From: Caulobacter sp. NIBR2454
GTDB lineage: Bacteria > Pseudomonadota > Alphaproteobacteria > Caulobacterales > Caulobacteraceae
Direction: 5' to 3'
Assembly: GCF_027474405.1 (NCBI RefSeq)
Contig: NZ_CP114871.1
Coordinates: 3,295,001-3,359,000, forward strand
DNA length: 64,000 nt
Part shown: positions 12,880-29,495 of the stretch, in pieces
How the letters are laid out: every line of letters begins with the position of its first letter
Numbering within the stretch: the first letter of the stretch is position 1
Made by a program: the position numbers and the translations under genes
Notes under the pieces: model-generated
What the model was told of the DNA's origin: nothing
Database searches by the model: none
Seen by the model: only the letters and a program-made list of their open reading frames with translations

Positions 12880-12947
12880 AGACCCTCTTCGCCGGCCGCG
12901 CCATCCTGGCGGACTTATGGGTGACATACGCCCAAAATTCCGGCCTT

Positions 12948-12959
12948 GCAATCGATTGC
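12948..12959. promoter_or_regulatory. LacI-family operator, site 1 (MFS/lacI unit)
   Basis: Perfect palindrome GCAATCGATTGC, 85 bp before the MFS transporter start. It is one of six copies sharing AATCGATT with a central CG, the typical form of LacI/GalR operators, all between 12.9 and 25.2 kb. Confidence 0.8.
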
Positions 12960-13044
12960 CTCCCTACTAAGGTCTGCCCTCAAAGCAAGAGCGTGAGGCG
13001 CTGCGAGCCGATCGGCTGGCGACCTCGCAGCAGGGGGAGACATC

Positions 13045-14304
13045 ATGGCGAACCAACAGATTCCATCGGCGAGGGCGCGCGGCTCGCTGTTGCTGAAAAT
13101 CCTCGTCTTCTTGATGTTTGCGATGTTCGCCATGACGACGGACGCCGTGGGCACGGTGATCCCCGAGGTGATCCGCGAGTTCGGCCTCGGGCTGACGGCC
13201 GCCGGCTCGTTCCAGTACGCCACCATGTCGGGCATCGGCATCGCCGCCATCGGTCTTGGCTTCTTGGCCGACCGCCTTGGGCGCAAGGCGACGATTCTGA
13301 TTGGGCTTGGACTTTTTGGCGTGGCCTCGGCGCTGTTCGCGGCCGGCCACGACTTCCTGTTCTTCACGGGCCTGCTGTTCATTTCAGGCCTGGGGATCGG
13401 CGTCTTCAAATCGGGAGCGCTTGCGCTCATCGGCGACCTTTCACGCTCCACGGGCGAGCACGCCCGGACCATGAATCTGGTGGAGGGCTTCTTTGGCGTC
13501 GGCGCCATCGTTGGCCCAGCGCTTGTGGCCTATCTGGTCCAGAGCGGAGCGAGCTGGAAGTGGGTTTATCTGCTGGCCGCGGGGCTTTGCGCCCTTTTGC
13601 TGATCGGATCGTTCGCCGCGCGTTTCCCCCGTCCGGTCGCGACCGCCCAGGGGCCTGTCCGCCCCGATGAGGCGCTGCGGCTGATGCGCGATCCGGCCTC
13701 GCTGTTCTTTGGCCTGGCCCTGATGCTCTATGTGGGCGCCGAAGCCGCCGTCTACGTCTGGGCGCCCACCTATCTGTCCAGCTACCAGGGGCCTTGGGTG
13801 TGGCTGGTCGCCTATGCGGTGGCGATCTTCTTCGTGCTGCGCGCCATCGGCCGCTTCCTGGGCGTGTGGCTGCTGTCCAAGTTTGATTGGACGGTCGTGG
13901 TGGCCATCTGCAGCAGCGCCATGGCCGCGCTGTTCTGGGTCGCCGTCGCTGGCGGCCGCGACGTCGCGCTGTTCGCGCTTCCGGCGACGGGCCTGTTCAT
14001 GTCGGTGCTCTACCCGACCCTCAACTCGGCGGGCATCAGCTGCCATGACAAGAGCCGCCATGGATCCATCGCCGGCTTGCTGCTGTTCTTCACCTGCGTC
14101 GGCGCCGTCGTCGCGCCGCTGTTGATGGGGCTTGCCGGCGACTGGCTGGGCGAGATCGCCTGGAGCATCACCGCGGGGGCGGCCCTGGCCAGCCTCCTGG
14201 CGGCGCTTTGTGTCTGGAACGCGGTGCGTAAGCCGTTCGCCGCCCGGCTGGCCGAACGTGATGTAAACGACTACTCCCCCGTCGAGACCAAGCCGGCCGG
14301 CTAG
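13045..14304 (+). CDS. MFS transporter, probable sugar carrier of the LacI regulon
   Basis: A 419-residue 12-helix major facilitator protein of the inner membrane. The loop 2-3 signature is FLADRLGRKATILIG, and the N-half contains FFGVGAIVGPAL. GGGGGAGA precedes the ATG. A perfect LacI-type operator lies 85 bp upstream and a LacI-family repressor gene follows after 90 bp, so carrier and regulator form one unit. Together with the GH68 enzyme and fructokinase downstream, the likely cargo is sucrose or a related fructose-containing sugar, but the sequence alone does not show substrate. No frameshift or missing segment is seen. Confidence 0.88.
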   Translation: MANQQIPSARARGSLLLKILVFLMFAMFAMTTDAVGTVIPEVIREFGLGLTAAGSFQYATMSGIGIAAIGLGFLADRLGRKATILIGLGLFGVASALFAAGHDFLFFTGLLFISGLGIGVFKSGALALIGDLSRSTGEHARTMNLVEGFFGVGAIVGPALVAYLVQSGASWKWVYLLAAGLCALLLIGSFAARFPRPVATAQGPVRPDEALRLMRDPASLFFGLALMLYVGAEAAVYVWAPTYLSSYQGPWVWLVAYAVAIFFVLRAIGRFLGVWLLSKFDWTVVVAICSSAMAALFWVAVAGGRDVALFALPATGLFMSVLYPTLNSAGISCHDKSRHGSIAGLLLFFTCVGAVVAPLLMGLAGDWLGEIAWSITAGAALASLLAALCVWNAVRKPFAARLAERDVNDYSPVETKPAG

Positions 14305-14394
14305 GCTGGCGGTCGTCAGCGCTGCTACGGCGCCCAATAAGCGGTTGACATGCGGCCGGGGGCGTCGTGGAACGGGCGGTGACAGGGAGGCCTC

Positions 14395-15402
14395 TTGGCC
14401 AATAAGGTTCGCACAATCTACGACCTCGCCAGCCTGGCCGGCGTGTCGGCGGCCACCGTGTCGCGCGCGCTCGCCGGCAAGGGCATGGTCAGCGCCGCCA
14501 CGGAAGAGCGCATCCGCGCCCTGGCCGACAAGCATGGCTTTCGCCCCAGCTCATTCGCCAGAAACCTGCGGATCAAACGGCGTGGCGCGATCGGCGTGGT
14601 CATCCCGTTGGGCCACGAGCGCGCGCAGCACATTTCCGATCCATTCTTCATGACCATGATCGGCTGCCTGGCCGACGAGCTGACCGAGCGCGGCTTTGAG
14701 CTGGTGCTCTCGCGCGTCATTCCCGACCGAGAGGACTGGCTTGAAGAGATGATCGCCGCCGATCGGGTCGATGGCTTCATCATCATCGGCCAGTCGGACC
14801 AGTCGGCCATTTTGGATGCGGCGGCCCAGCACTACCTGCCCATGGTCGCCTGGGGCGCCTTCGCACCCGGTCAGGCCCATTGCTCTGTAGGCACAGACAA
14901 CTTCCTGGGCGGCCGATTGGCCACGCTTCACCTGATCGAACGCGGCTGCAAGAACATCGCCTTCTTTGGCAACGCCAAGGCGATCGAGATCCGCCACCGG
15001 CTGGAGGGCGCCCGCGCGGCCATCGCCGACAGCAAGGGCGCGGCCAACCTGGTCGAGATCCCCACCCATCTGGCGGCCGAGCTGAATTCGGCCGAGATCG
15101 CTCAGTTCCTGGATGAGGCCGAACAGTTGCCCGACGGCGTCTTCGCCGCTTCGGACATGATCGCCCTGTCGGCGATCCAGGCCTTCGCCGCGCGGGGGGT
15201 CCACGCCCCGCGTGACGTCAAGGTCGTGGGCTTTGACGATCTGGCGATGGCCCGCACCTCGATGCCTGCCCTGACGACGGTTCGCCAAGATGTCGCCGCC
15301 GGCGCCACCCAGTTGGTGGAGTGCCTGCTCAAGCGGGTGGAAGGAAAGCGGACGGGATCGGTCGTGCTCGACCCCGAACTGATCGTCCGCGCCTCCAGCT
15401 GA
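14395..15402 (+). CDS. LacI/GalR-family transcriptional repressor
   Basis: A 335-residue regulator. The N-terminal helix-turn-helix is TIYDLASLAGVSAATVSRALAGKG (residues 8-31), with a hinge at about 50-60 and a periplasmic-binding-protein-like effector domain (GAIGVVIPLG ... VDGFIIIGQSD ... VGTDNFLGGRLATLHLIERGCKNIAFFG ... VVGFDDLAMA). The start is a TTG with GGGAGG four nt upstream. It is the obvious candidate to bind the six CAATCGATTG-type sites around it. No site is visible between the MFS gene and this gene, so it is probably read from the MFS promoter and thereby autoregulated. The effector is inferred to be a sugar or sugar phosphate. Confidence 0.93.
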   Translation: MANKVRTIYDLASLAGVSAATVSRALAGKGMVSAATEERIRALADKHGFRPSSFARNLRIKRRGAIGVVIPLGHERAQHISDPFFMTMIGCLADELTERGFELVLSRVIPDREDWLEEMIAADRVDGFIIIGQSDQSAILDAAAQHYLPMVAWGAFAPGQAHCSVGTDNFLGGRLATLHLIERGCKNIAFFGNAKAIEIRHRLEGARAAIADSKGAANLVEIPTHLAAELNSAEIAQFLDEAEQLPDGVFAASDMIALSAIQAFAARGVHAPRDVKVVGFDDLAMARTSMPALTTVRQDVAAGATQLVECLLKRVEGKRTGSVVLDPELIVRASS

Positions 15403-15405
15403 CCG

Positions 15406-16473
15406 CTAAGCCGGCAAGGCCTGACCAAAGGCGCGGCGAAGCGCGTCCATCTTGATCCGCGTGAACCGTTCGGCGATTTCAGTCTCGCTCGCGACGCGGT
15501 CAAAGGCGTGATAGCCGCCGGGGAAGACGTGCAGTTCGACCGGCACGCCCGCCTCGTTCAGACGCCGCCCGTAGGTGATGTCCTCGCTGACGAAGAGATC
15601 CACCCCGCCCACCGCGATGAAGGTCGGCGGCAGGCCGGCCAGGTCAGCGACCCGCGCCGGCACGCCGGCGGCTGGAACGGCGCCCCCGCCCGGTTCAACG
15701 CCGAGCAAACTGCGCCAGCCATAACGGTTGGAAGCGGCATCCCACAGCACCGCACCGATATGGGCCGGCGTCCTGACCGAACTACCCGTGCGATCATCGA
15801 GCATGGGATAGATCAGGGCCTGGAAGGCGACCGGAACCTCGCCCCGGTCACGCGCGGCGATCGCAAGCAAGGCGGCGTGCCCGCCCCCGGCGCTTTCGCC
15901 CAGCAGCGCGACACGCTTGGGATCAAGGCCAAGTTCGCGCGCGGAGGCGTGCATCCACCGCAGGCCCGCATAGTTGTCCTCGAGCGATCCGGTAAAGCGC
16001 GCCTCGGGCGCGAGGCGATACTCGACCGACACCACGATGCAGTCGAGGTCGCGCGCCAGCTCCTGCAAAAAACGAAGTTCGTAGCGGGCCTGGCCCAGAA
16101 TAAAGCCGCCGCCGTGGGTGTGCAGGATGCCGGGCCGCGCGCCCGCGCCGCCGGCGTTGATGACAAACACCGTAACCGGCGGATGCCCGCGCGCGCCTGC
16201 AATCTGGCGCTCGTCGACGCGAATGTCGGGCAGCAGCGGCGCCGCATAGCTGGCGCTTTCGGTCCGACGCTTGGCGACGGTGGCGTCGCCCAGCGGCTGC
16301 GACTGAGCCGACATGGTCAGCATGCGTAAAGCCGAGGGACGCAATTGCGGGTCGATGTGGGCAAGGACATCGGCGAACGGCGAGGCGTCCTGCGCGCGGG
16401 CTGGAACACCAAGGCCGAACGCGGCGATGGCGGCGACGCCAAGGCGCGCGAAATCTCTTCTATGGATGCTCAC
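15406..16473 (-). CDS. Exported HSL-family alpha/beta-hydrolase esterase 1
   Basis: Hormone-sensitive-lipase-type carboxylesterase. The oxyanion motif is HTHGGGFILG, the nucleophile motif GESAGGGHAA, and the C-terminal His is in GGYHAFDRV. The leader MSIHRRDFARLGVAAIAAFGLGVPARA carries a twin-arginine motif (RRDFARL), so Tat export is likely. The start is a GTG with GGAGG seven nt upstream. It converges with the LacI gene with only 3 bp between stops. An operator (16558-16569) sits 84 bp upstream of its start, placing it in the LacI regulon, where it probably deacylates the imported or surface-bound substrate. Confidence 0.9.
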   Translation of the reverse strand: MSIHRRDFARLGVAAIAAFGLGVPARAQDASPFADVLAHIDPQLRPSALRMLTMSAQSQPLGDATVAKRRTESASYAAPLLPDIRVDERQIAGARGHPPVTVFVINAGGAGARPGILHTHGGGFILGQARYELRFLQELARDLDCIVVSVEYRLAPEARFTGSLEDNYAGLRWMHASARELGLDPKRVALLGESAGGGHAALLAIAARDRGEVPVAFQALIYPMLDDRTGSSVRTPAHIGAVLWDAASNRYGWRSLLGVEPGGGAVPAAGVPARVADLAGLPPTFIAVGGVDLFVSEDITYGRRLNEAGVPVELHVFPGGYHAFDRVASETEIAERFTRIKMDALRRAFGQALPA

Positions 16474-16557
16474 GATCGTCCTCCGCGGGCGCGCCGGTCT
16501 ATCGCCGGCTGGCTAGGCGCAGCGTCGAACAAGCCATGGTCGAATACAAGCCCAAAC

Positions 16558-16569
16558 GTAATCGATTGC
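16558..16569. promoter_or_regulatory. LacI-family operator, site 2 (esterase 1)
   Basis: GTAATCGATTGC, one mismatch from a perfect palindrome, 84 bp upstream of the esterase 1 start. Its sequence is identical (reverse complement) to site 4 before the ceramidase-family gene. Confidence 0.75.
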
Positions 16570-16746
16570 GGTTCTGCGAGACATTTGACCGGCAATGGAC
16601 CCATGTCGCCGCCAGCTTGCCCGTGCGACGCCGCGGGAGTTTGGCGCTCGATCGAGCCGAAATGACCTTGTGGTTCAGGCCATGCGGAGCTCCATCGGTT
16701 GCGCCGCCCGGCTTCAGGCGAAAGAGAAACGGGCGCCTTTTGGCTA

Positions 16747-16760
16747 TACAATCGATTGTA
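16747..16760. promoter_or_regulatory. LacI-family operator, site 3 (GH68 operon)
   Basis: Perfect 14-bp palindrome TACAATCGATTGTA, 142 bp before the chosen GH68 start. Confidence 0.8.
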
Positions 16761-16902
16761 ACGACCGCAGCATTCCAGTACGCAGAAGGCTTAAGTTAGA
16801 AGTTCGGATCAGCCCGGTGCCCGCATACCTCTCTCTTCCCGCGACGATGAGCTCGACGCGCCCTTGGCGGCGGCGGGCGCGACCAGGCGCTCAGCCTCGG
16901 TG

Positions 16903-18063
16903 ATGCGCACTGATCCACAATCGAGCGTCCCCGCCGCCGGCGACGCACCGGCGACAGCCTGGACCGCGGCGCAGGTGCGCCAGATCTCGCTGGACGCGGC
17001 CCATAGCGCGCCGATCCTTGGGCCGTCCGACGTGGTTCGAGCCGCGCCCGACATTGACATCTGGGACGCCTGGCCGATCCAGGACGCGGACGGGGCCGCC
17101 TTTGCGTTGCCGGGAGGCGAGACCCTATGGATGGCGCTTGGCGCGCCACGCTTCCCCGATCCCGACGAGCGTCATGGCCACGCGCGAATCCACCTCTTTT
17201 CCCGGACCGACGGGCGATGGAGCGATCTTGGCCCGGCCATGCCGGACGGCTTCTCGCCCGGCAGTCGTGAATGGTCAGGCTCGGCCGTCCTTGACCAGGA
17301 CGCCGCCAGCCTGACGCTCTATTTCACGGCTACGGGTCGGCGCGGCGAGGCGGCCCTCACTTTCGAGCAGCGCCTGTTTCGCGCGCGCGCCACCTTGCGC
17401 GGTCAAACGGGGTCGTGGTCGCTGGGGGACTGGCGTGATCTGAACGAGTTTGTCCTGCTTGACCCAGACTTCTACATGGCCAGCGACGCTGGCTCGGGCG
17501 CTGTGGGCACCATCAAGGCGTTTCGCGATCCGGCCTATTTCCGCGACCCGGCCGATGGTCGCCACTATGTGTTCTTCGCCGCGTCGAAGGCCGGATCGCC
17601 TTCGGCCTTCAACGGCGTCATCGGCGCGGCCCGCGCGGATGAGGAGGCGGCGGCTCAATGGACCATCCTGCCGCCGATCATCAGCGCCGATACGCTCAAC
17701 AACGAGCTGGAACGCCCTCACGTGGTCTTCCACGAGGGTCGCTATTACCTGTTCTGGTCGACCCAGAGCCACGTCTTCAATCCCGAAGGTCCCGTCGGCC
17801 CCACGGGGCTCTACGGCATGGTGGCCGAAGGGCTTGGCCAGCAATGGCGGCCGTTGAACGGCACGGGCCTAGTGTTCGCCAACCCGCCCCAGGCGCCGCG
17901 GCAAACCTATAGTTGGCTGGTCATGCCCGACCTGCAGGTGACAAGCTTCGTCGACGACTGGGGCGATGACGTCTCGGCCCCCCGCGAAAAGCGTTTTGGC
18001 GCCACGTTCGCCCCGATGCTGCGCCTTCGCCTGAGCGGCGAAAACGCCGAGCTTGAGGCGTAG
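16903..18063 (+). CDS. GH68 fructosyl hydrolase/transferase (levansucrase or sucrase type)
   Basis: Five-bladed propeller enzyme that cleaves sucrose and may transfer fructose. With the ATG at 16903 (386 residues) the catalytic triad reads: nucleophile Asp55 in IDIWDAWP, transition-state stabiliser Asp209 in FRDP, acid/base Glu270 in NNELERPH. EWSGSA at about 123-128 is the conserved substrate-site segment. A TTG at 16864 could extend the N-terminus by 13 residues. No signal peptide is seen with either start, so the protein is cytoplasmic or exported without a cleaved leader, as known for some alphaproteobacterial levansucrases. The fructokinase starts 3 nt after its stop, which favours intracellular hydrolysis. 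Confidence 0.88.
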   Translation: MRTDPQSSVPAAGDAPATAWTAAQVRQISLDAAHSAPILGPSDVVRAAPDIDIWDAWPIQDADGAAFALPGGETLWMALGAPRFPDPDERHGHARIHLFSRTDGRWSDLGPAMPDGFSPGSREWSGSAVLDQDAASLTLYFTATGRRGEAALTFEQRLFRARATLRGQTGSWSLGDWRDLNEFVLLDPDFYMASDAGSGAVGTIKAFRDPAYFRDPADGRHYVFFAASKAGSPSAFNGVIGAARADEEAAAQWTILPPIISADTLNNELERPHVVFHEGRYYLFWSTQSHVFNPEGPVGPTGLYGMVAEGLGQQWRPLNGTGLVFANPPQAPRQTYSWLVMPDLQVTSFVDDWGDDVSAPREKRFGATFAPMLRLRLSGENAELEA

Positions 18064-18065
18064 CC

Positions 18066-18965
18066 GTGAGCGGCCCTGAACGCCTCGTCGGCGTCGAGCT
18101 TGGCGGCACCAAGGCCATCGCCATTCTCGCCGACGGCGATCAGATCACCGAGCGGGTCACATTGGCGACCCAAGCGCCAGCCGAGACCTTGGGTGCGCTT
18201 CGCGATCAGATCGATCGCTGGCGAGCGCTTTGGTCGCTGCAGGCGATCGGCATCGCCTCGTTCGGGCCCCTGCAGCTGGATCGCGGCCAGCCCGATTACG
18301 GGACCATCCTGGCTACGCCAAAGCCCGGCTGGAGCGGCGCGCGTGTCGCGGCCATGCTCACCGACGGCTTCGACTGTCCTTGGGATATCGACACCGACGT
18401 CAATGGCGCAGCCTTGGCCGAACACCTTTGGGGCGCTGGCAAGGGCTGCGAGGCCTTGAGCTACGTCACCATCGGCACGGGTGTGGGCGGGGGGCTGTTG
18501 ATCAGCGGGCGGCCTGTCCACGGCGCGATGCATCCTGAGATCGGGCACCTTCGGCTGCGCCGCGCGCCCGGCGACAGTTTTGCGGGCGCCTGCCCCTTTC
18601 ACGACGACTGCATCGAGGGGCTGGTGTGCGGCCCAGCACTGACGCAGCGGTTGGGCATGGACGCAGCCGCGGCGTCGGACGACCATCCGGCGTGGCGTTA
18701 CGTGGCCTGGGACATCGCCGAGCTTTGCGGCGCCATTTTGCTGACCACCTCGTCCGAGCGCATCCTCTTCGGCGGCAGCGTGGCGCTGGAGCGCTCTTTC
18801 CTGCTGCCTCTCGTGCGCCAGATCCTGGTTGAACGGCTTGGCGATTATCTGCCGTTCGTAACCGCGAAATCCGCCGACAGCATCATAAGGGCCGCAGCCC
18901 TTGGTCCCGACGCCGGCCCCATGGGCGCGATCGCCCTAGCCAAGCGCGCCGCGTCGAAAGCCTAG
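18066..18965 (+). CDS. ROK-family fructokinase
   Basis: ATP-dependent sugar kinase of 299 residues, predicted to phosphorylate fructose. The phosphate-binding motif is VELGGTKA (residues 9-16), the catalytic Asp lies in DTDVNGAAL, and TIGTGVGGGLL is the second phosphate motif. The zinc site is the fructokinase variety: EIGHL followed by a CPFHDDCIEGLVCGPAL segment. The start is a GTG two bases after the GH68 stop, so the pair is translationally linked. This coupling is the best evidence that fructose is released in the cytoplasm by the upstream enzyme. Confidence 0.9.
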   Translation: MSGPERLVGVELGGTKAIAILADGDQITERVTLATQAPAETLGALRDQIDRWRALWSLQAIGIASFGPLQLDRGQPDYGTILATPKPGWSGARVAAMLTDGFDCPWDIDTDVNGAALAEHLWGAGKGCEALSYVTIGTGVGGGLLISGRPVHGAMHPEIGHLRLRRAPGDSFAGACPFHDDCIEGLVCGPALTQRLGMDAAAASDDHPAWRYVAWDIAELCGAILLTTSSERILFGGSVALERSFLLPLVRQILVERLGDYLPFVTAKSADSIIRAAALGPDAGPMGAIALAKRAASKA

Positions 18966-19001
18966 CCGCCCGCACACAGCGCAGGCGGCCAGGCCTTCAA
19001 C

Positions 19002-20117
19002 TTACTTGGCCAGGTGAGTGTCGAAGAAGCGCACCATGATGTCGTAGGCCTCGCGCGATTCCGGCAGCTCGGAATTGTAGATAAAGGCGTGAAACAGACC
19101 GTCCCAGCCATGGAACTGGGACTGCACGCCGGCGGCGGTCAGCTTGTTGTGGGAGTTCAAGGCGGCGCTGAATTCGAAAGAGCGCGTTCCTGAGATCAGC
19201 AGGGTTGGCGGGAACCGCGCCAGCACGTCGCGCGACACCTCCGGGTAAGCGAGCGGATCATCGCGGCGCGCATCGCCCATATAGGTCGGCGCACGCGGCG
19301 CCGGCGGCGACGCGCTAGCGGCAGGGGGCGGCGCTCGGCGAGGGCCAGAGCCCAAAAGCCCGCCGGCCAGGTGAGCGGAGTCGCCTGCCACCATCTGGCC
19401 CAGTGAAGAGCAGAAAACGCCGACGGCGGCGGGGTTAGGAAGATCGTGGCTCTGGAACCAGGCGATAGACTGCGCGGCCAGGGTGCCGCCCGCCGAGCAG
19501 CCATAGAGGCCCACCCGCTTGGCGTCATGGGTCTTGAGCACCTGCCGATAGACCGCCGCGACGTCCTGGCTGGCCGCCGGGAACTGGTATTCGGGGCCCA
19601 TCCGGTAGTCGATCGAGATCACCTTGATGCGCATGAGCGCGGCGAGCGGAACCGATTCCACCAGTGATGCCGATCGCGCGCCGGTGACGAAGCCGCCGCC
19701 ATGCAGATTGATCAGCACGCGGTCGCGGTTTTCGGGGGAGACGCCATCGGCGGGCGTGACGACGTCCACGAGCACGCCGCCGATCGTCTCCTCGGCCACA
19801 TTGACGGCGTAGCGTCGGCGCATCGGATCGAGGAAGACGCGCATGATCGCGTCCTGCCGCGCCCGCTCGGCCTTGATGTCAGCGAGCGGCGGACCCGATC
19901 CGAAGGGCTTGTCCACGATCAGGTGGCGCAGGTAGTCGGCGCCTTCCTTGCTGAGCAGGTTGGACGGCGGGACCTCGCCGCTGAGCAGCACCGTGCCGTC
20001 GGGTTTGTAGGGCGGCGGCGCGGTCTGCGCGCCAGACAGGCCCGGCCAGCCGGTCGTGATCGCCAGGGCCAGGGGCAGCGCGGCGCAAGCACGCCGCAGG
20101 TTCGAACGCGGGGTCAT
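19002..20117 (-). CDS. Exported HSL-family alpha/beta-hydrolase esterase 2
   Basis: Second hormone-sensitive-lipase-type hydrolase: NLHGGGFVTG oxyanion motif, YGCSAGGTLAAQ nucleophile elbow (G-C-S-A-G), and C-terminal His in LFHAFIY. The start is uncertain. The frame opens with a GTG at 20183 that overlaps the upstream stop (GTGA); ATGs lie at 20132 and 20117. I choose 20117 because it gives a normal Sec signal (RRACAALPLALAITTG...SGAQ) and has GGAAAG upstream. It is downstream of, and coupled to, the ceramidase-family gene and so falls under operator 4. A low-complexity Pro/Ala insert at about residues 268-292 follows the nucleophile region. Confidence 0.85.
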   Translation of the reverse strand: MTPRSNLRRACAALPLALAITTGWPGLSGAQTAPPPYKPDGTVLLSGEVPPSNLLSKEGADYLRHLIVDKPFGSGPPLADIKAERARQDAIMRVFLDPMRRRYAVNVAEETIGGVLVDVVTPADGVSPENRDRVLINLHGGGFVTGARSASLVESVPLAALMRIKVISIDYRMGPEYQFPAASQDVAAVYRQVLKTHDAKRVGLYGCSAGGTLAAQSIAWFQSHDLPNPAAVGVFCSSLGQMVAGDSAHLAGGLLGSGPRRAPPPAASASPPAPRAPTYMGDARRDDPLAYPEVSRDVLARFPPTLLISGTRSFEFSAALNSHNKLTAAGVQSQFHGWDGLFHAFIYNSELPESREAYDIMVRFFDTHLAK

Positions 20118-20179
20118 CTTGAATCTTTCCATCAGACGCGCGCGCGAAGCGCCGGCTGAGCCGACGCATCGCCGCCCGA

Positions 20180-21625
20180 TCACTGGCTCTTGGCCGGGGT
20201 GGCGGTCACCTGATCGACAAGGTCGAGCAATCCATTGACGATGGCGGTTTCGGCGCAGCCAGGCTGCAGCCGCGAGGAGACCACCTCGAAGGTGTTGAAG
20301 CCAAAGGCCGCGTCGTTCGGAATATAGCCCGAACGCGCCACGCCATTGGTCAAGGTGGTCATCATCGTGTGCTTGAAGGGCGACTGGCGTTTGAAGCGCT
20401 GGGCGATCATCGTGAACACCTCGGCGTCGACGCCGCCGATCATGGTGTCGCCGATCCGCAGCAGGCTAAGGCGAATGCCGATGGGATCAGCCGGCTCGTA
20501 TGTGCCAGGATAGCCCGCACGGCCCTTGTCCAGGCGACGACGGCCGGGGCACGAGACGACGGTCTGAGCGCCCGCGATCTTGGCCTCGGCCACCGGCCGC
20601 TCCAGGTTGGAGCGCGAGACGTGGAGCACCTCCTCGCCCAGCATTTGGCCCATGCTTAGGGTCATCTGCTTTTGCTGATCTAGCAGGCGTGCGACCTTGG
20701 GGTTCTTGCGGTCCAGTCCCTGGCCGCCTGGCGGCATGGCGTTGCTGATGTCCTGGCCGCGCGCGGCGTAGTCTTCGATGCGGATCTGGCGCAGGTCATA
20801 GGTCTGCTGGAAGAAGATCGGATTTTGATCGCCGGCCGCGCCGTTGGAATAGACGGCGACCACATCGTCGCCCAGCGAGTCCTCGATATAGCGCGAGGCC
20901 GAACCCGGAAGATCGCCGCTGACCATGTCCAGCGAGCCAGTCAGGACGGCGTGGACCCCATAGTTGAAGTAGACCGCGATCGGCGCGCCTTGGAGTGTCT
21001 CGAACCGCACCACGGCGACGGTCTTGTCGGACGGGCCGTCGTAATTGGGCCCTTCCCACCAACGCTGGGTTTTAGGGTCGATGATGTTGCGGTTCACATT
21101 GATGTAGGAGACGCCTTGGCCATAGGCCATCCGCGCGGGGCGCAGTTTTGCCGAGGCGTTTTTCAGCGCCTGGAAGAGCGATTCCTCGTAGGCCGCGTCC
21201 CGGCCGAACGGAACGCTATGGGTGTGGGTCGCGGTCACCAGGATTTGGTTGGCGGGGATGCTAAGTTCGCTCGCGGCGCGGGCGGTCAGACGCTCCCAGA
21301 TCGGCGTGGCTACAGCGCCCGCATCGACGGTCAGCAGGGCCGCGCGGGCGCCGCCGCTCTCGATCACGATGGCGCGGGCATAGATCTTGTCGAGCACGCC
21401 GTTGAAGTTGTCCGGCAGTTTGGCCGGGGTGACGTCAACCTTGGCGGCGCCCACGCGCATGCCCGTCGTCTGGGCCAAAGCCGGGCCGGCGGTCAGCATG
21501 AGCGCGCTCGCCGCTACGAGGCCTAGCCTCTTGAAGCGGCGCCCGACGCCAGCGCACCGAAATAGGCTCGCCAGCTTTTCGATAAGATTTTCGGCGCCCC
21601 ACCACGCTCTTGTTTTTCGATTCAT
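20180..21625 (-). CDS. Neutral/alkaline ceramidase-family hydrolase, exported
   Basis: A 481-residue protein with the zinc-amidase N-terminal domain of neutral ceramidases (ILVTATHTHSVPFG zinc motif, VYSNGAAGDQNP). The C-terminal Ig-like domain of classical ~650-residue ceramidases is missing, so the substrate may be another N-acyl or O-acyl compound. GGAGG lies 9 nt before the ATG at 21625, giving a long N-region before the hydrophobic signal core (LGLVAASALMLTAGPALAQ). Operator 4 abuts this Shine-Dalgarno sequence. Regulon membership suggests it attacks a sugar-linked acyl substrate rather than ceramide, but this is inference. Confidence 0.85.
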   Translation of the reverse strand: MNRKTRAWWGAENLIEKLASLFRCAGVGRRFKRLGLVAASALMLTAGPALAQTTGMRVGAAKVDVTPAKLPDNFNGVLDKIYARAIVIESGGARAALLTVDAGAVATPIWERLTARAASELSIPANQILVTATHTHSVPFGRDAAYEESLFQALKNASAKLRPARMAYGQGVSYINVNRNIIDPKTQRWWEGPNYDGPSDKTVAVVRFETLQGAPIAVYFNYGVHAVLTGSLDMVSGDLPGSASRYIEDSLGDDVVAVYSNGAAGDQNPIFFQQTYDLRQIRIEDYAARGQDISNAMPPGGQGLDRKNPKVARLLDQQKQMTLSMGQMLGEEVLHVSRSNLERPVAEAKIAGAQTVVSCPGRRRLDKGRAGYPGTYEPADPIGIRLSLLRIGDTMIGGVDAEVFTMIAQRFKRQSPFKHTMMTTLTNGVARSGYIPNDAAFGFNTFEVVSSRLQPGCAETAIVNGLLDLVDQVTATPAKSQ

Positions 21626-21638
21626 CCGCGTTTCCTCC

Positions 21639-21650
21639 GCAATCGATTAC
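21639..21650. promoter_or_regulatory. LacI-family operator, site 4 (ceramidase/esterase 2)
   Basis: Plus strand GCAATCGATTAC; on the minus strand GTAATCGATTGC immediately precedes the GGAGG of the ceramidase-family gene, 13 bp before its ATG. Binding there would block transcription start or elongation. Confidence 0.75.
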
Positions 21651-21940
21651 CGTTTAGGCTATTCGCGGCGCGGGCGGATGGCAACTTTTTACGGCCGAGC
21701 CCTCGGACGCCGCCGCCACGGAAGGCCGAGTGAGGCCCGCATGGCGCCGTGGCAGGCGATGCGGGCCCACAGCCACCAAACCATTGTTATTCATAGGCTT
21801 TGCACCAAGAACGGCCGGGCGGCGACGAAGTCCCGTGGTGGCGAGGGCCGCGCTGACGATCAATTTCGGCCATAGGCACACAGCCCAGACCTCCAACCGC
21901 CCGTCAGATTTTTCTAGAAATCCGCCCGCAATCATGTACG
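21651..21940. other. Divergent promoter interval between ceramidase-family and TonB receptor genes
   Basis: About 290 bp without a credible open frame. Besides the flanking operators it contains the 10-bp palindrome TTTCTAGAAA at 21911-21920, of unknown meaning. Confidence 0.45.
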
Positions 21941-21950
21941 CAATCGATTG
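21941..21950. promoter_or_regulatory. LacI-family operator, site 5 (TonB receptor)
   Basis: Perfect CAATCGATTG core in TACGCAATCGATTGATA, 24 bp before the receptor ATG and just ahead of its AGGGGAG ribosome site. Confidence 0.8.
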
Positions 21951-21974
21951 ATATAAAAAATATAGGGGAGAAAC

Positions 21975-24086
21975 ATGTCACTTCACTGCAGTGTAGCCGT
22001 CGGAGCCTTGGCCATCGCCATGGCCGCTGGCGTAAGCGTCGCTCAGGCCCAGGAACAGGCCGAATCCGCCGGCGCGTCGCGCGCCCAAAGCGTCGATGAA
22101 GTCGTCGTCACCGCGCAAAAGTCCGGCGTCCAGGCCCTTCAATCGGTGCCGCTTCCCATCCAGGCCTTTTCGGGCGAGGAGATGAAGGAGCGCAACATCA
22201 ACAACATCGGCGACCTGGTCTCCAGCATTCCGGGCGCCTCGGAAGGCTTTCGTCAGTCCGTCGGTTCGCGCTTTTACAATCTGCGCGGCGCAGTGACCCA
22301 AAACGGCGACTCGCCACTGGGCTATTACCTCGACGACGTCCCGTTCATCGTCACCAATTTCGGCATCGCTCCGCCGGTTCGCTTCGTCGATATGGAGCGC
22401 GTGGAGGTCCTGCGCGGCCCGCAAGGCACGCTCTATGGACAAGGCTCGGCCGGCGGCGTGTTCATCTTCCACACGCGCGATCCTAATCTGAGCGAAATGG
22501 AATACGCCGTGGAGGGCGAGACCTCCTCGACCAAGGGGGCCGAAGGCCTCAGCTACGGGGCCAACGGCGCGCTGTCGCTCCCCCTCATCAAGGACCGGCT
22601 GGCCGTTCGCGTCAGCGGCGGCTTCTCGCGCGAAGCGGGTTGGGCCGACGCCTACTACGGCCCCTTTGACGGCACCCCCGATGAGAAGGGCGTCAACGAC
22701 GCCAAGAACGACGACCTGCGTGTCGTGGCCTTGTTCCGGCCGGTCGACAACGTCGAGATCCGCGGCCAGTACTGGAAGTTCAGGCCACGCCAGAACTTCA
22801 GCGGCTTCACCGCGGCGGTTGATCCGCCCTACTACCAAAACACCGCTGGCCAACAGGGCTTCTCCAACGGCGACTTCACCCTCTGGAGTCTGGCGGCGAC
22901 GGTCAATTTCGAGACCTTCTCCATCACCAGCGCCACCAGCCATCTGGAAGGCGAGTTCGGGATCAACCTGCCGCAGTCGCCGTCGGGCTTCTTCTCAAGC
23001 CAGTTCATGCCCAAGATGTTCGCGCAGGAAGTTCGCGTGAACTCCACCACGGACGGCCCGCTGCACTGGGTGGTCGGGGCCTCCTATCAGGATGGCCAGG
23101 GCCCGCAGGTCAACGCGCTGGTTCGTCCTGGCGTCAACATCAACGCCGACAACAACACCATCACCGAAAACTACGCCTTCTTCGGCGAGATCAGCTACGA
23201 CCTCTTCGACGGCAAGCTGGTCCCGCTGGTCGGGGCGCGGACCTATCACGACGACCGATCCTTCGAGGACGGCACGACGTTCGTGCCCACCAAGGAGGAC
23301 GTCAACACCTGGCGTCTGAACCTGGCCTATCTGCCAAGCGACGACCTGACCATGTTCCTGTCGGCCGCCACGGGCTTTAGGCCCGGCATTGTGCAGTCGC
23401 GCGTTCAGGTGGAGTCGCTGGGCCTGGCGGGCGTGCCCGCCTCGGTGGCGCTCAATCCTGAGTCCACCAAGAACTACGAGTTTGGCGTCAAGTGGCGCAG
23501 CTACGACCGCACCTGGACGGTGGGCCTGAACCTTTACCAACTGGAATATACCGATCTGCAAACCTCGGTGACCGGCGGGATCGAAGGGGTCAACGGCTTC
23601 GCCAACTTCGGTGACGCCACGTCCAAGGGCGTCGACTTCGAGGTCCACTGGCGCACCCCGATCGATGGCCTGAACCTTGGCTTTGTCGGCAATCTGAACG
23701 ACAGCGAGTACGACACGGTCAACGCCGTGGTCGCCGCCGCCCAACCGCTGCTGCGGCCCGGCTCGCGACTGCTCAACACCCTCGATAAGAACTACCGGTT
23801 CGACGTCAATTACAGCCGCGACTTCGCCCAGGGCTTTGAGGGCTTCGGCAACCTGTCGCTAAGCCACAGCGGCGATCGTCTGCAGACCAACGGGTTCACG
23901 GCCCGGCCGTACGATCTGGTCAACACCACGATCGGCGTTCGCCGCGACAGTTGGGAGCTGGCCCTCGTCGGCAACAACCTCCTTGACGAGCGTGGACCTA
24001 CGTTCGTGGGCACCAACGGCCCGCTTTCGGGCTCTGGTCCCACCCCGCGCACCGTCGGTCTGCGTCTCCGCGTCACCTCCCAGTGA
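21975..24086 (+). CDS. TonB-dependent outer-membrane receptor of the LacI regulon
   Basis: A 703-residue outer-membrane gated channel. The signal peptide is SVAVGALAIAMAAGVSVAQA. The TonB box region is VDEVVVTAQKSG, followed by the plug domain (VPLPIQAFSGEEMKERNINNIGDLVSSIPG; MERVEVLRGPQGTLYGQGSAGGVF) and a beta-barrel containing NLYQLEYTDLQTSVTG. It ends RLRVTSQ rather than in the usual terminal aromatic residue, which is slightly unusual. AGGGGAG precedes the ATG and an operator lies just upstream. It is presumably the outer-membrane entry point for the same sugar handled by the MFS carrier, GH68 enzyme and fructokinase. A terminator follows. Confidence 0.92.
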   Translation: MSLHCSVAVGALAIAMAAGVSVAQAQEQAESAGASRAQSVDEVVVTAQKSGVQALQSVPLPIQAFSGEEMKERNINNIGDLVSSIPGASEGFRQSVGSRFYNLRGAVTQNGDSPLGYYLDDVPFIVTNFGIAPPVRFVDMERVEVLRGPQGTLYGQGSAGGVFIFHTRDPNLSEMEYAVEGETSSTKGAEGLSYGANGALSLPLIKDRLAVRVSGGFSREAGWADAYYGPFDGTPDEKGVNDAKNDDLRVVALFRPVDNVEIRGQYWKFRPRQNFSGFTAAVDPPYYQNTAGQQGFSNGDFTLWSLAATVNFETFSITSATSHLEGEFGINLPQSPSGFFSSQFMPKMFAQEVRVNSTTDGPLHWVVGASYQDGQGPQVNALVRPGVNINADNNTITENYAFFGEISYDLFDGKLVPLVGARTYHDDRSFEDGTTFVPTKEDVNTWRLNLAYLPSDDLTMFLSAATGFRPGIVQSRVQVESLGLAGVPASVALNPESTKNYEFGVKWRSYDRTWTVGLNLYQLEYTDLQTSVTGGIEGVNGFANFGDATSKGVDFEVHWRTPIDGLNLGFVGNLNDSEYDTVNAVVAAAQPLLRPGSRLLNTLDKNYRFDVNYSRDFAQGFEGFGNLSLSHSGDRLQTNGFTARPYDLVNTTIGVRRDSWELALVGNNLLDERGPTFVGTNGPLSGSGPTPRTVGLRLRVTSQ

Positions 24087-24156
24087 TGCTGCGTCACCCG
24101 CCCCGCCGCTCCTGTGTCGGCGCGGGGTGGGCCACCTTGGTGCGTTAGAGCATCGC

Positions 24157-24188
24157 GCCCGCCGGCTTCAACCGGCGGGCTTCTTTTT
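24157..24188. terminator. Rho-independent terminator after TonB receptor
   Basis: Nine-bp stem GCCCGCCGG / CCGGCGGGC with loop CTTCAA, followed by TTCTTTTT on the plus strand. It lies between the convergent TonB receptor and SGNH hydrolase genes and abuts the SGNH stop. Confidence 0.9.
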
Positions 24189-25104
24189 AAGGCTGCAGCG
24201 CCTCGTCCAGAGCGGCCTTGGCGAGGGGCTCCATCACCGCATAGCCGGCGCGCGTGGGGTGAACGCCGTCATTGGCGTAGCGCGGATCAAACCCGCCTTG
24301 TGGATCGGCCAGGGGCGTGAAGTAGTCGACGAAGATCACACCTTCCTCGTCCGCCAGACGCCGCAGGCGGCCGTTGAGCGTGCGCACCATCGGGCGAACG
24401 TCGAACTCCGGACGCGGCAGCAACCGCGACATGGGCGGCAGGGCCGCCAGCACCACCTTGATGTCGTTGGCTTGCGCCAAGTCGATCATGGCCTTGATGT
24501 TGTAGACGTATTCGTCCTCGGTGATGGCGCCCGTGGCCCCGCCGATGTCGTTGGTCCCGGCCATGATGTGGACGACCCTGGGGCGCAAGGCCACGACGTC
24601 ATGGTAGAAACGCGCCACCATCTGGGTGCTGCTCTGCCCGCTGATGCCGCGATCCACATAGCCTGTTTGGAAGAAGTCGCGATTGGCCTCGATCCACCCT
24701 TCGGTGATGGAGTCGCCCATGAAGACGACGCGGGGGCGTTGGCCGCCCTGCTTAAGGGCGGCGTTGGCGTCGCGGTACCGGCAAAGATAGGCCCAGTCGC
24801 TCGCCCGCTGTTCGGCCTGTCGCGCCCGGAACGCCACCGCGGCCGGAGAGTCGCTCTTGGGGTCCATGAAGCGGCGCGCCATGGCCGACATCTCGTCCAG
24901 ATCGCGCGGGCGCGTTTCGAACTGGGCCGCCAACTGTTCGGCGCTGCGCGGCGGCGTGGCGGCGCAGCGTATGACCGTATCATTCACCGCCGGATAGGAG
25001 AGCAAAGCGTCCGCTCCAACCTGTTGGGCGCCCGGGGTCTGGGCATGCGCTGACGCCGAGACCGCGACCATAAACAGCGCCCCGACGGCGATGGCCTTTT
25101 TCAT
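24187..25104 (-). CDS. Exported SGNH/GDSL hydrolase 1 of the LacI regulon
   Basis: A 305-residue esterase with a Sec signal (MKKAIAVGALFMVAVSASAHAQ). The catalytic domain starts near residue 120: FMGDSITEGW (Ser), DRGISGQSS, AGTNDIGG and DGVHPTRAGY (Asp/His). The first ~100 residues after the signal form an extra domain with two Cys (IRCAAT, AYLCRYRD), unlike minimal SGNH proteins. GGGAGG precedes the ATG. It shares the intergenic operator (25166-25175) with the divergent second SGNH gene, so both should be co-induced. Likely role: removal of acetyl or other acyl groups from the transported glycoside. Confidence 0.9.
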   Translation of the reverse strand: MKKAIAVGALFMVAVSASAHAQTPGAQQVGADALLSYPAVNDTVIRCAATPPRSAEQLAAQFETRPRDLDEMSAMARRFMDPKSDSPAAVAFRARQAEQRASDWAYLCRYRDANAALKQGGQRPRVVFMGDSITEGWIEANRDFFQTGYVDRGISGQSSTQMVARFYHDVVALRPRVVHIMAGTNDIGGATGAITEDEYVYNIKAMIDLAQANDIKVVLAALPPMSRLLPRPEFDVRPMVRTLNGRLRRLADEEGVIFVDYFTPLADPQGGFDPRYANDGVHPTRAGYAVMEPLAKAALDEALQP

Positions 25105-25165
25105 ATTCGTCCTCCCTGTCGCCGCGTTGGGCGTGACTGTGATGGATGCGGATAATCCGCCACCT

Positions 25166-25175
25166 CAATCGATTG
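25166..25175. promoter_or_regulatory. LacI-family operator, site 6 (divergent SGNH pair)
   Basis: CAATCGATTG (extended TCAATCGATTGCA), 61 bp from the start of SGNH 1 and 56 bp from that of SGNH 2, placed to control both. Confidence 0.8.
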
Positions 25176-25231
25176 CATAACCCGAACCGGCGCCTTACGC
25201 ATCGATCCATGGCGTTGGATGGGAGGATTTC

Positions 25232-26539
25232 ATGCGGTTGTGCAGCCTGGCTCTGATACTGGCGCTCGCTTTGGGCTTAGTCGACGCTTCCATGGCCCAA
25301 GCAAGGACCGACGGCTCCGCGCCCAAATGGATCGCCAGCTGGGGCACGGCCCAACAGCTCGCCCCGTCAGGCCCGCCGCCCTTCGCTCGTTCTGGTCCGC
25401 CGCCCGCTGGGACCGCGAGCGCGCCACGCCCAGCGTCGCCCTCGCCCATGCTGCCCTTCCCGCCCACGCTTTCGGATCAGACGGTGCGGATGATCGTGCG
25501 CACCTCCGTGGGCGGCGGGCAGCTGCGCCTTGAGTTCAGCAACGCCTCGGGCGGACCCGCCGTCACCTTCGGGTCGGTCCATGCCGCCCTGGCCGCAGCA
25601 GACTCCGCCATCGTTCCGCAAAGTGATCGCGTGGTGACGTTCAGCGGCTCAAAGAACCTCACGCTCTTTCCCGGCGCACGGGCGGTTAGCGACCCTATCG
25701 ATCTGGCCGCCCCCGCCCTCAGCCGCATCGCCGTCTCCATCCATCTGCCGCAAGAGACCCCGGTGAATACGGCCCATGCCCTGGGGCTCAACCCCGCCTA
25801 CATCGCCAAGGGCGACGTGACCGGAGCGGGCAAGATCGAGGACGCGCAGGTCGCCCGATCATACTTTTGGCTGACAGGTCTGGAGGTTCTCAGCGACGCT
25901 CCCGATCCGGGCGTGATCGTGGCGCTGGGCGACTCCATCACCGACGGCTACGCCACCACGCCGGGCGCCTTCGCGGCCTGGCCGGACCTTTTGGCCGCGC
26001 GACTGCAGGCCGATCCGGCGACCGCGCGATGGGGTGTCGTCAACGCCGGCATCTCGGGCAACCGCATCCTGCGCGCTGGGGCCGGAGAAGCGGCCGTGGC
26101 GCGCTTCGACGAGGACGTGCTGGCGCGCCCTGGGGTCAAATGGGTCCTGCTGCTGGAAGGGATCAACGACATCAACATGTCGATCATGCCAATCATCCCC
26201 GACAGCGAAGACGTCACCGCCGACCAGATCATCGCCGGCATCAGCCAACTGATCGATCGGGCCCATCAGCATGGCCTGAAAATCGCCGGCGGCACGATCC
26301 TGCCCACCAAGGGCCTAGCCTTCTACACCGAGGCGGGCGAGCGCATGCGTCAGGACATCAATGCGTGGATCCGCACTAGCGGACGCTTTGATGCGGTCAT
26401 CGATTTCGATGCAGCCGTCCGTGACCCCAGCGATCCGTCACGCCTGCGCCCCGACTTCAACCCTGGCGACCACGTCCATCCCAACGACGCCGGCAATCGG
26501 GCCATGGTCGAGGCGATCAGGTTGGAGCTGTTCCGATAG
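25232..26539 (+). CDS. Exported SGNH/GDSL hydrolase 2 of the LacI regulon
   Basis: A 435-residue esterase with a Sec signal (LCSLALILALALGLVDASMAQA). An N-terminal beta-rich domain (about residues 30-225, containing VRTSVGGGQLRLEFSNA) precedes the SGNH domain: VALGDSITDGY, NAGISGNRIL, LEGINDINM and DHVHPNDAGNRAM. This two-domain form is typical of secreted esterases acting on polysaccharide or acylated sugars. GGGAGG precedes the ATG. It is divergent from SGNH 1 across operator 6. All catalytic blocks are intact. Confidence 0.9.
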   Translation: MRLCSLALILALALGLVDASMAQARTDGSAPKWIASWGTAQQLAPSGPPPFARSGPPPAGTASAPRPASPSPMLPFPPTLSDQTVRMIVRTSVGGGQLRLEFSNASGGPAVTFGSVHAALAAADSAIVPQSDRVVTFSGSKNLTLFPGARAVSDPIDLAAPALSRIAVSIHLPQETPVNTAHALGLNPAYIAKGDVTGAGKIEDAQVARSYFWLTGLEVLSDAPDPGVIVALGDSITDGYATTPGAFAAWPDLLAARLQADPATARWGVVNAGISGNRILRAGAGEAAVARFDEDVLARPGVKWVLLLEGINDINMSIMPIIPDSEDVTADQIIAGISQLIDRAHQHGLKIAGGTILPTKGLAFYTEAGERMRQDINAWIRTSGRFDAVIDFDAAVRDPSDPSRLRPDFNPGDHVHPNDAGNRAMVEAIRLELFR

Positions 26540-26598: not shown

Positions 26599-27363
26599 TC
26601 AGGGCGCGCTCGCATCGCAACCAACCTCGACCTGGGCCAGCATCCCAGATTGCAGCAAGGTGGCCAGCAAAGCCCCCGCGATCGTGGGCCCCTCCGCGGG
26701 CCCGTGTCTGAACACAAGAAACTCGCAAAGCGCGGCGAATGATGGATCGGCTTGTAGTTGGTCGAAGGCCTGTCCTTGTGCTTCGTCGACGCCCCGAACG
26801 ACGCATTTGAAATCCCGCCGCCAGACGATGATCCGCGCGGTCTGCTCCAGCGTGGATGCGGGGGGCGGCGCTGTGTGCTCTGACAGGGCGGTCCAAATAT
26901 CCAGGGCGTTGGTGGTGACCGCTCTCATCCGTAAGGATGGACAAAGCCGCAGCCGCGCCCTCTCCCAATCAATCCCTTCGAGCGACTGTAGCGCGAGCGG
27001 TTTGGCGTCCCTGGCGACGAACGCCTCGCCAAGGGCGGTCTCGATCCAGGCCAGATCAGCCACCTCAGGGTCGCCGGGAAAATGGCCGACAAGGCTTTGA
27101 GCAAAGCCAGGCGCATAGGCGTCGAGCGTCCAGGCGCTGGGCGGCTGGCGGTCGATATAGGCGACGGCGGCGCCCACGAAGGCCTCCTCGCCAATCCAGG
27201 CCAGGGTGAGCGGCAAGGACTCCTGCAACGCCCCGACCAACTGTGCGCGGTAGTTGTTCTGATAGACCAGCAACCCCGGCCCCGCCCCCAGGCGATCGGC
27301 GGCCACGTCCGACCCGTCCACGAGCCAGGCTCGAAAATCGGTTTGAAGCGCCGCGAGCGTCAT
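26599..27363 (-). CDS. bufC: DUF2063 protein, bufferin biosynthesis partner (BufC/HvfC-like)
   Basis: A 254-residue protein with the HvfC/BufC N-terminal domain (LAALQTDFRAWLVDG; LLVYQNNYRAQLVGALQESLPLTLAWIGEEAF). Members accompany DUF692 enzymes and are thought to bind the precursor peptide and present it for modification. Its ATG overlaps the stop of the DUF692 gene (ATGA), showing translational coupling. It is the last gene of the bufferin operon. Confidence 0.88.
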   Translation of the reverse strand: MTLAALQTDFRAWLVDGSDVAADRLGAGPGLLVYQNNYRAQLVGALQESLPLTLAWIGEEAFVGAAVAYIDRQPPSAWTLDAYAPGFAQSLVGHFPGDPEVADLAWIETALGEAFVARDAKPLALQSLEGIDWERARLRLCPSLRMRAVTTNALDIWTALSEHTAPPPASTLEQTARIIVWRRDFKCVVRGVDEAQGQAFDQLQADPSFAALCEFLVFRHGPAEGPTIAGALLATLLQSGMLAQVEVGCDASAP

Positions 27364-28214
27364 GCGGCGGCCTGGCGTCGCGCGGTCGCCACGCGCTCGC
27401 CGATAGCGCGAGCGACATCCAATTCATCGAGGAGTTCCTCCAGCGGCGGAATGGCGTCGTCGCGCTCGATCATGGTGGCGACGCGACCGACAAGAGCGAC
27501 GGCGTGTTCGTAAAGGCGCCATACAGCGGCGCAGACAGCGGTGTCGTGGGTGTCGATCAGCAGGTCGCGTCCCTGGCTGTGTCCGGCCAGGTGAATCTGG
27601 CGCACGCGATCGGCGGGAAGCCCTTCCAGGTAAGCGAGCGCGTCCTGGCCGTGGTTCTGAGCGCTGACATAGACGTTGTTGACGTCCAAAAGCAGCTCAC
27701 AGCCCGTCCGCTCGCACACCGCTCCCAGGAAGGACCACTCGCTCATCGCATCCTGGGCGAAGGCCACATAGCTGGACGGGTTCTCCACCAGCAGACGGCG
27801 GCCAAGGACATCCTGCGCCAGGTCAATATTGGCGCAGACGATGTCGAGAGTCTCGCTCGTATAGGGCAGCGGCAGAAGATCGTGCGAATTGAAAGCCCCT
27901 ATCCGCGACCAGCTGAGATGATCAGAGACAAACAGGGGATCGATCTCATCGACCAGGGCTCTGAGCCGAGCCAGATAGTCGCGATCAAGGCCGTCGGCTG
28001 ATCCGATGGACATAGACACCCCATGCAAGGCGACGGGAAGCTGCTCACGCACCTGGCGAAGGATGTGACGCGGCTGGCCGCCGTCGACCATGAAGTTCTC
28101 GGAAATCACCTCGACGAAGTCGAGCCGCGCCTGGCCCTGCAGGACCAGGCTGTAGTGCTCCTTGCGCAGGCCAAGGCCGTAGCCGCTGAACGGCGGATTT
28201 GAAGACGGCGTCAT
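27360..28214 (-). CDS. bufB: DUF692 multinuclear non-heme iron oxidase, bufferin maturase (BufB-like)
   Basis: MNIO-family enzyme (284 residues) that installs oxidative modifications on Cys residues of the bufferin precursor. The start at 28214 (MTPSSNPPFSGYGLGLRKEHY) fits family length; the frame stays open further upstream without coding character. TIM-barrel metal-ligand segments are visible: EVISENF, LHGVSMSIGS, SDHLSWSRIG, LLDVNNVYVS, HLAGHSQG and IDTHD. It follows the BufA2-like precursor gene by 59 bp and overlaps the DUF2063 gene by 4 nt. Copper-chelating RiPPs made by such enzymes have been described in Caulobacter. Confidence 0.92.
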   Translation of the reverse strand: MTPSSNPPFSGYGLGLRKEHYSLVLQGQARLDFVEVISENFMVDGGQPRHILRQVREQLPVALHGVSMSIGSADGLDRDYLARLRALVDEIDPLFVSDHLSWSRIGAFNSHDLLPLPYTSETLDIVCANIDLAQDVLGRRLLVENPSSYVAFAQDAMSEWSFLGAVCERTGCELLLDVNNVYVSAQNHGQDALAYLEGLPADRVRQIHLAGHSQGRDLLIDTHDTAVCAAVWRLYEHAVALVGRVATMIERDDAIPPLEELLDELDVARAIGERVATARRQAAA

Positions 28215-28273
28215 CACTAGACTTTCATCGAGAAAGACCACGCCCGGCGCGTGGGACCGGGCGTGGGAGCAGG

Positions 28274-29067: not shown

Positions 29068-29069
29068 GA

Positions 29070-29450: not shown

Positions 29451-29495
29451 AAAATCATCCCGCGCCGTCGCGCCGGAAAATATTCGCTCGTGGTC

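Follow-up and report, generated by a model that had tools for sequence, protein, structure and literature searches.

The closest described systems to the locus analyzed here are the sux locus of Xanthomonas campestris and the suc locus of Caulobacter crescentus, which, in the accessible parts of the reports, combine a LacI-type repressor with a TonB receptor (PMC1790865; PMC11897816). The description of the suc locus comprises sucR and the four genes sucABCD (PMC11897816); for the sux locus, the accessible part of the report describes intracellular sucrose hydrolysis, as we propose below, and names no esterase (PMC1790865). The present locus is a ten-gene cluster at positions 13045-26539 of a 64,000-nucleotide stretch of the Caulobacter sp. 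NIBR2454 genome (NZ_CP114871.1, positions 3,295,001 to 3,359,000 of the forward strand; hereafter the window), and it shares the LacI-type repressor and TonB receptor of the sux and suc loci, which are also said to include an inner-membrane carrier. A preliminary description had named these ten genes; all are present, and the labels given to them match Pfam families:

13045..14304, + strand, MFS carrier, predicted inner-membrane sugar importer (PF07690)
14395..15402, + strand, LacI-family repressor (PF00356; 75% to that of locus L003)
15406..16473, - strand, HSL1, predicted exported HSL-type esterase with a twin-arginine start (PF07859; HGGG, GESAG)
16864..18063, + strand, GH68 enzyme of the levansucrase/invertase family (PF02435)
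18066..18965, + strand, ROK-family kinase (PF00480)
19002..20183, - strand, HSL2, second predicted exported HSL-type esterase (PF07859)
20180..21625, - strand, ceramidase-fold hydrolase (PF04734)
21975..24086, + strand, TonB-dependent receptor (PF00593/PF07715)
24187..25104, - strand, SGNH1, predicted exported SGNH/GDSL hydrolase (PF13472)
25232..26539, + strand, SGNH2, predicted exported two-domain SGNH hydrolase (PF13472)

This gene set, and its conservation in relatives, suggest that the cluster is probably a utilization system for acylated sucrose. Acylated sucrose would be taken up by a TonB receptor of a distinct type, and up to five predicted-exported hydrolases would deacylate the ester in the periplasm or at the surface. 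The freed sucrose would then be carried inward by the MFS protein and split by the signal-less GH68 enzyme, with the ROK kinase phosphorylating the fructose, while the LacI protein would bind palindromes at the promoters and respond to sucrose or a product. We infer the transport and catalytic steps from family membership, as we do the acyl groups, the sucrose core, the ligand of the receptor and the action of the hydrolases on the ester.

Esterase genes accompany one GH68 clade and non-sucrose-type receptors

The preliminary description had named a lack of conservation of the esterases with GH68 among the findings that would refute its proposal. In a tree of 78 GH68 loci, built by a quick method, the window GH68 falls in a clade of 15 loci (clade A; SH-aLRT 97). 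L026, whose GH68 is at 27%, was excluded, and L142 was removed because it duplicates the record of L007; of the GH68 places found in the order of genome G585, 59 were used, G138, G214 and G175 of the window's order were left out, and the Sphingobium sp. RAC03 and Sphingobium sp. V4 plasmid loci lie outside the counts. Because a map based on open reading frames (ORFs) missed the GH68 ORF in several loci, esterase genes were counted at the DNA level, by tblastn with eleven probes (from the window, L003, L007 and L018) within 9 kb of GH68. The esterases do accompany GH68: at least two occur in 12 of the 15 clade-A loci, compared to 1 of the 63 others (Fisher 1e-10), and three more of the 63 have one homologue. 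When the two L007 probes were left out, 10 of the 15 clade-A loci still had at least two (2e-8), and L007 and its near-twin L039 dropped to one.

A probe-free count gave a similar contrast. Non-core ORFs were scanned against Pfam in 13 of the 15 clade-A loci (94 ORFs; L007 and L112 were left out as near-twins) and in 13 comparison loci (88 ORFs), a random sample of the 55 whose flanks were long enough; ORFs longer than 720 residues and those with a core probe as their best match had been set aside. One ORF may score in several families, and on that basis the clade-A loci hold 16 Abhydrolase_3, 16 BD-FAE, 14 COesterase, 5 ceramidase-family, 4 GDSL and 3 tannase matches. None of these six families is among the 25 commonest of the comparison loci, a list that reaches down to families with 2 members and so may hide singletons. 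By contrast, the generic Abhydrolase_1 and Abhydrolase_6 families have 2 members each in both sets.

The preliminary description had also grouped the TonB receptor with the sucrose-type genes. The receptor is present, but its assignment as sucrose-type did not hold: in a fast tree with long branches, the receptors of plain sucrose loci form a 57-row clade, and the window receptor lies outside it, at 75-79% to the receptors of L018, L019, L107 and L108. The window receptor is thus not of the type found at sux- and suc-like loci, where type is defined by genomic context and the ligand is a prediction. Among the 71 loci of the receptor table (seven in which no TonB receptor was found, some of them on short contigs, were left out), at least two esterases occur in 13 of the 14 with only a non-sucrose receptor (11 of 14 without the L007 probes) and in none of the 57 that have a sucrose receptor. 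The exceptions to the GH68-clade pattern fit this receptor rule: clade-A loci L110 and L113 have a sucrose receptor and no probe esterases, and L138, outside clade A, has a window-type receptor (40%) and four esterases. Conservation of the esterases with GH68 and their tracking of receptor type support the acylated-sucrose interpretation, the chemistry of which is read from protein families.

L138 shares genome G1005 with L123. Of these two GH68 loci, L123 is plain and L138 carries the four esterases, so that both forms can be compared within a single genome.

The receptor counts also bear on an unlikely alternative, in which sucrose signals the presence of plant material, GH68 acts on free sucrose and the esterases attack other, unrelated esters of plant or lipid origin (acetyl-xylan, cutin or phenolic esters), so that one regulator serves two substrates. 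Plain sucrose loci share the palindrome of the window, SGNH2 is related to acetyl-xylan esterases, and HSL1 has broad-esterase relatives, all of which speak for this alternative. However, a bacterium feeding on free sucrose together with other esters would be expected to keep the sucrose receptor, whereas none of the 57 loci that have it carries two or more esterases, and no xylanase or cutinase family was found among the scanned cluster genes.

A shared palindrome precedes the divergent gene runs

The preliminary description had called the cluster a regulon, and the promoter regions agree with that term. All four intergenic promoter regions, one upstream of the MFS gene and three divergent ones, hold the core AATCGATT, at six sites:

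12947..12960, operator-like palindrome TGCAATCGATTGCC before the MFS gene, with core AATCGATT at 12950-12957
16557..16570, operator-like palindrome on the HSL1 side, core at 16560-16567
16747..16760, perfect 14-base operator-like palindrome TACAATCGATTGTA before GH68, core at 16750
21638..21651, operator-like palindrome before the ceramidase-fold/HSL2 pair, core at 21641-21648
21939..21952, operator-like palindrome before the TonB receptor, core at 21942-21949
25164..25177, operator-like palindrome between SGNH1 and SGNH2, core at 25167-25174

The LacI gene, 91 bases behind the MFS gene, and the ROK gene, behind GH68, have no AATCGATT site of their own. In dinucleotide shuffles of the window the mean count of the core was 0.66, and six were reached in 0 of 100. 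The 3.83-Mb genome contains 17 copies, 6 of which lie within 13.5 kb (binomial probability 2e-11). Seven of the 11 sites elsewhere in the genome are inside called ORFs, and none of the 11 precedes a recognizably sucrose-related gene, as judged by eye on ORFs without a family scan. A LacI repressor gene together with shared operator-like sites would be consistent with regulation of the sux/suc type. Of 50 esterase genes in 14 loci, 30 have a AATCGATT site no more than 450 bp upstream, measured either from the gene itself or from the run of genes to which it belongs; the count carries no control on other genes. Sucrose LacI regulators fall into at least 11 groups according to the part of PMC4052901 that was available, and the AATCGATT string does not occur in the main text of that paper, figure logos being outside that check.

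The cluster is conserved across orders and varies in its esterases

With weak matches included, GH68 was found in 4 of the 75 genomes in the genus, in 15 of 398 from the window's order, 76 of 326 from the order of G585, 2 of 82 from that of G615, and 20 of 398 in a sample of the phylum, where matches of at least 60% identity occur only in the window and two others. In G852, which belongs to another order, all ten genes lie within about 13 kb at 55-79% identity (TonB receptor 79%, SGNH1 74%, MFS 72%, ceramidase-fold protein 67%, HSL2 65%, GH68 65%, SGNH2 63%, ROK 62%, HSL1 57% and LacI 55%). G1040 has counterparts of seven (TonB receptor 75%, ceramidase-fold protein 73%, GH68 72%, MFS 72%, ROK 71%, LacI 65% and SGNH2 58%), as well as genes for tannase-family, BD-FAE-like and type-B carboxylesterase proteins, most of them preceded by a palindrome. 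Three congeners combine GH68 with a second operator-marked module, in which HSL2 is set against an HSL1-receptor-carboxylesterase-ROK run; the carboxylesterase-sized protein of this module was confirmed by Pfam in L044. A close ceramidase-fold orthologue is present in 3 of the 4 GH68-bearing genomes of the genus (that of the window and two at 63%), compared to 0 of the 71 others. Two of these 71 congeners hold ceramidase-fold matches at 29-45%, L171 and L172 in G004 and L170 in G007; the two in G004 lie within about 7 kb on one contig, and these loci represent other contexts for the enzyme.

Tannase/feruloyl-esterase-family genes near GH68 were confirmed by Pfam in L003, L107, L111 and L177 and detected by probe only in L109 and L112. 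L177 belongs to Sphingobium sp. RAC03, where GH68 (54%) stands in a row with ROK, tannase/feruloyl esterase, SGNH hydrolase, TonB receptor, DUF3237 and window-type MFS genes, and where no exact palindrome was found; this strain comes from an algal culture, according to the accessible part of the report (PMC5095461). Sphingobium sp. V4 has GH68 at 61-62%, a sucrose-type receptor, no probe esterases and no palindrome, and a sucrose-type receptor without esterases is what the receptor rule expects. The run at L114 consists of GH68, ROK, an EstB-like beta-lactamase-family protein and an HSL gene, followed by an acyl-CoA-ligase-like gene (L114:4795-6399), whose best NCBIfam match is 3-(methylthio)propionyl-CoA ligase (640 bits; cut-off 822) and which hints that the released acids may be used.

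One explanation, that the esterases are chance neighbors of a plain sucrose locus and have spread by linkage, is consistent with the few independent events on the tree. It was already disfavored and we consider it very improbable, because the esterase promoters share palindromes, the ten-gene set is conserved across orders, and the same core is surrounded by different gene orders and different esterase families. As for the ester itself, the window has an acetyl-esterase-like SGNH2 and HSL proteins, and its relatives have tannase/feruloyl-esterase-family proteins and type-B carboxylesterases; this mix of enzymes points to sucrose polyesters of plants that bear acetyl as well as larger aromatic or branched acyl groups. 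Taking the relatives together, we regard as slightly better than an even chance a wider reading, in which a family of loci in three orders of Alphaproteobacteria is dedicated to esterified sucrose. Each locus would have its own receptor for the intact ester and two to seven esterases, varying from locus to locus to suit one or another of the sucrose esters of plants (acetyl, branched-chain, hydroxycinnamoyl or galloyl). The sucrose core would be shared with ordinary loci, and plain and armed forms would interconvert by a joint swap of receptor and esterases.

Two further arrangements were noted. At L020:7834-9183 a type I phosphodiesterase-family gene stands directly before GH68, with a LysR regulator on the other side; agrocinopine-type phosphodiester sugars were considered and dropped, as the phosphodiesterase was found by probe in no other clade-A locus. 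In the plain loci L021, L022, L023, L025, L043 and L166, a tryptophan-halogenase-like gene, named by look, lies between GH68 and the TonB receptor.

Sequence features of the five predicted hydrolases

Near the N-terminus of all five hydrolases lies a hydrophobic core without charged residues, of mean hydropathy 2.3-3.0, according to a simple home-made hydropathy rule that was applied to the window proteins and on which the export calls are based in place of a signal-peptide program. The signal-like core of HSL2 requires a start later than that of the longest ORF. The core of the ceramidase-fold protein starts 34 residues from the N-terminus and no alternative start codon lies between, so that its export is the least certain prediction of the five.

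By eye, both HSL proteins keep HGGG, with GESAG in HSL1 and GCSAG in HSL2, and both SGNH proteins keep GDSI and a C-terminal DxxH; we take these HSL and SGNH motifs to be catalytic. The nearest solved chains to HSL1 include a lipase and heroin esterase, and HSL2 best matches the GCSAG subfamily, at 380 bits against a cut-off of 410. The alignment of SGNH2 to the FjoAcXE-like carbohydrate acetyl esterase 7tog (268 bits) spans both domains, and SGNH2 shares the two domains and SGNH blocks of these acetyl-xylan esterases. It differs in having GDSI at the catalytic serine, where the accessible part of the FjoAcXE report gives GNSI for the family (PMC9105624). Removal of acetyl groups from xylan was considered as a role and dropped; there are no xylan genes among those scanned.

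The PF04734 match of the ceramidase-fold protein is 59.7 bits and covers only residues 68-269. In a predicted model of moderate confidence (mean pLDDT 71.6), the fold resembles neutral ceramidase (TM 0.67 to 4wgk and 0.66 to 2zws, by query length), and THTHS and GVHAV align to the histidine stretches of ceramidase, which presumably form the zinc site; the model thus appears to retain the fold and zinc-site histidines of neutral ceramidases. However, the window protein is shorter, at 15-16% identity, and GDQNP replaces the ceramidase stretch G-N-L-S-P, the serine of which we take to be catalytic, in six of six aligned sequences, the window's included. A role as a true ceramidase was dropped on this account, and the protein is not named a ceramidase here.

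Sequence features of the GH68 enzyme, kinase and carrier

The GH68 match is strong (PF02435, 211 bits; cut-off 27), and the stretches WDAW, FRDP and NELERP are kept, with the three carboxylates that we assume to be catalytic. Its N-terminus is not signal-like (hydropathy 0.5, with 1.5 for LacI and ROK), consistent with a predicted cytoplasmic sucrose-cleaving enzyme of the kind expected for a sux/suc-type locus. It is the sole GH68 found in the genome. For the ROK kinase, NCBIfam gives the fructokinase ScrK as best match, at 172 bits where the cut-off is 400. The carrier type is common to L003, L107, L108, L109 and L111 (65-72%); this MFS_1 carrier differs in type from that of plain sucrose loci, which had no match in the window's genome in a search made without a positive control.

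GH68 enzymes generally transfer or cleave beta-fructosyl units, which would also suit an acylated fructan or another acylated beta-fructoside larger than sucrose, from which GH68 would trim fructose after deacylation. A TonB receptor would be more needed for such larger molecules. However, the single MFS carrier and the signal-less GH68 suit a disaccharide, and a genome search gave no GH32 match; we consider this substrate improbable.

Observations that weigh against the acylated-sucrose reading

Several observations weigh against acylated sucrose as the substrate, the first group of which concerns regulation. The palindrome is also present in 12 of the 13 checked loci outside clade A, an indication that what the regulator senses is sucrose or a product formed after deacylation; the signal may thus be sucrose itself and not an ester. 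Under the 450-bp rule 20 of the 50 esterase genes lack a palindrome, as does the SGNH pair of G852, and L007 and L039 have neither a palindrome nor, by probe, a LacI gene.

A second group concerns the counts. With the five window esterases alone as probes, the difference shrinks to 6 of 15 compared to 1 of 63 (p 1e-4), and several of the probes derive from clade-A loci. Only 4 changes on the tree underlie the counts, and the independent pairs number 2 to 4, short of significance, so that the Fisher values overstate independence. L114 has a window-like receptor and just one probe esterase. Apart from an SGNH2 homologue, L007 and L039 have just two alpha/beta hydrolases, of which one falls short of a Pfam cut-off and the other only just exceeds it. 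The esterase families vary by locus, as varied esters would lead one to expect, but a loose association would appear the same. Finally, enzyme families predict ester specificity poorly, and activity, ligand and inducer are predictions.

Genes adjoining the cluster

The adjoining region at window 26599-30081 encodes an MbnB/TglH/ChrH-family enzyme of ribosomally synthesized and post-translationally modified peptides (RiPPs; 363 bits), a DUF2063 protein, a DoxX protein and an ECF-type sigma factor, a set that we liken to metal-related RiPP (bufferin-like) operons.

Comparison with known systems

Plants produce esters of sucrose for defence and as stores of phenolics. Judged by titles and the starts of abstracts, the open-access literature that was searched yielded no report of a bacterial acylated-sucrose locus, and we found no described bacterial route that uses plant sucrose esters as food; the window locus would be one, if the proposed reading is correct. 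In that case a clade-A GH68 with esterases and a non-sucrose TonB receptor would be a gene signature for acylsugar-stripping bacteria, the enzymes would form an esterase set for making partly acylated sucroses, and plain and armed loci would offer a natural contrast that makes receptor ligand choice testable.

Among known enzymes, GH68 levansucrases and invertases (closest solved chain 7bj4) share the family and the catalytic stretches of the window GH68. Unlike these enzymes, the window enzyme lacks a signal-like N-terminus and is encoded beside a fructokinase-like gene, and it likely hydrolyzes sucrose rather than making levan. Among known loci, the SusD-like lipoprotein of a Sus-type polysaccharide utilization locus has no counterpart here, as no SusD-family member was found among the scanned cluster genes. 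Plain GH68 sucrose loci (such as L021 from the window's order, and L127 and L145 from that of G585) share LacI, GH68 and the ROK kinase with the window, and L021 shares the palindrome as well. They differ in having a sucrose-type receptor, another MFS type and no probe esterases. Likewise, the sux and suc loci transport free sucrose, whereas the window locus adds five predicted-exported hydrolases and has a receptor from outside the sucrose-receptor clade. Judged by its gene content, the locus appears to be a variant within the frame of a sux/suc-type sucrose locus, set apart by its esterases and its receptor.

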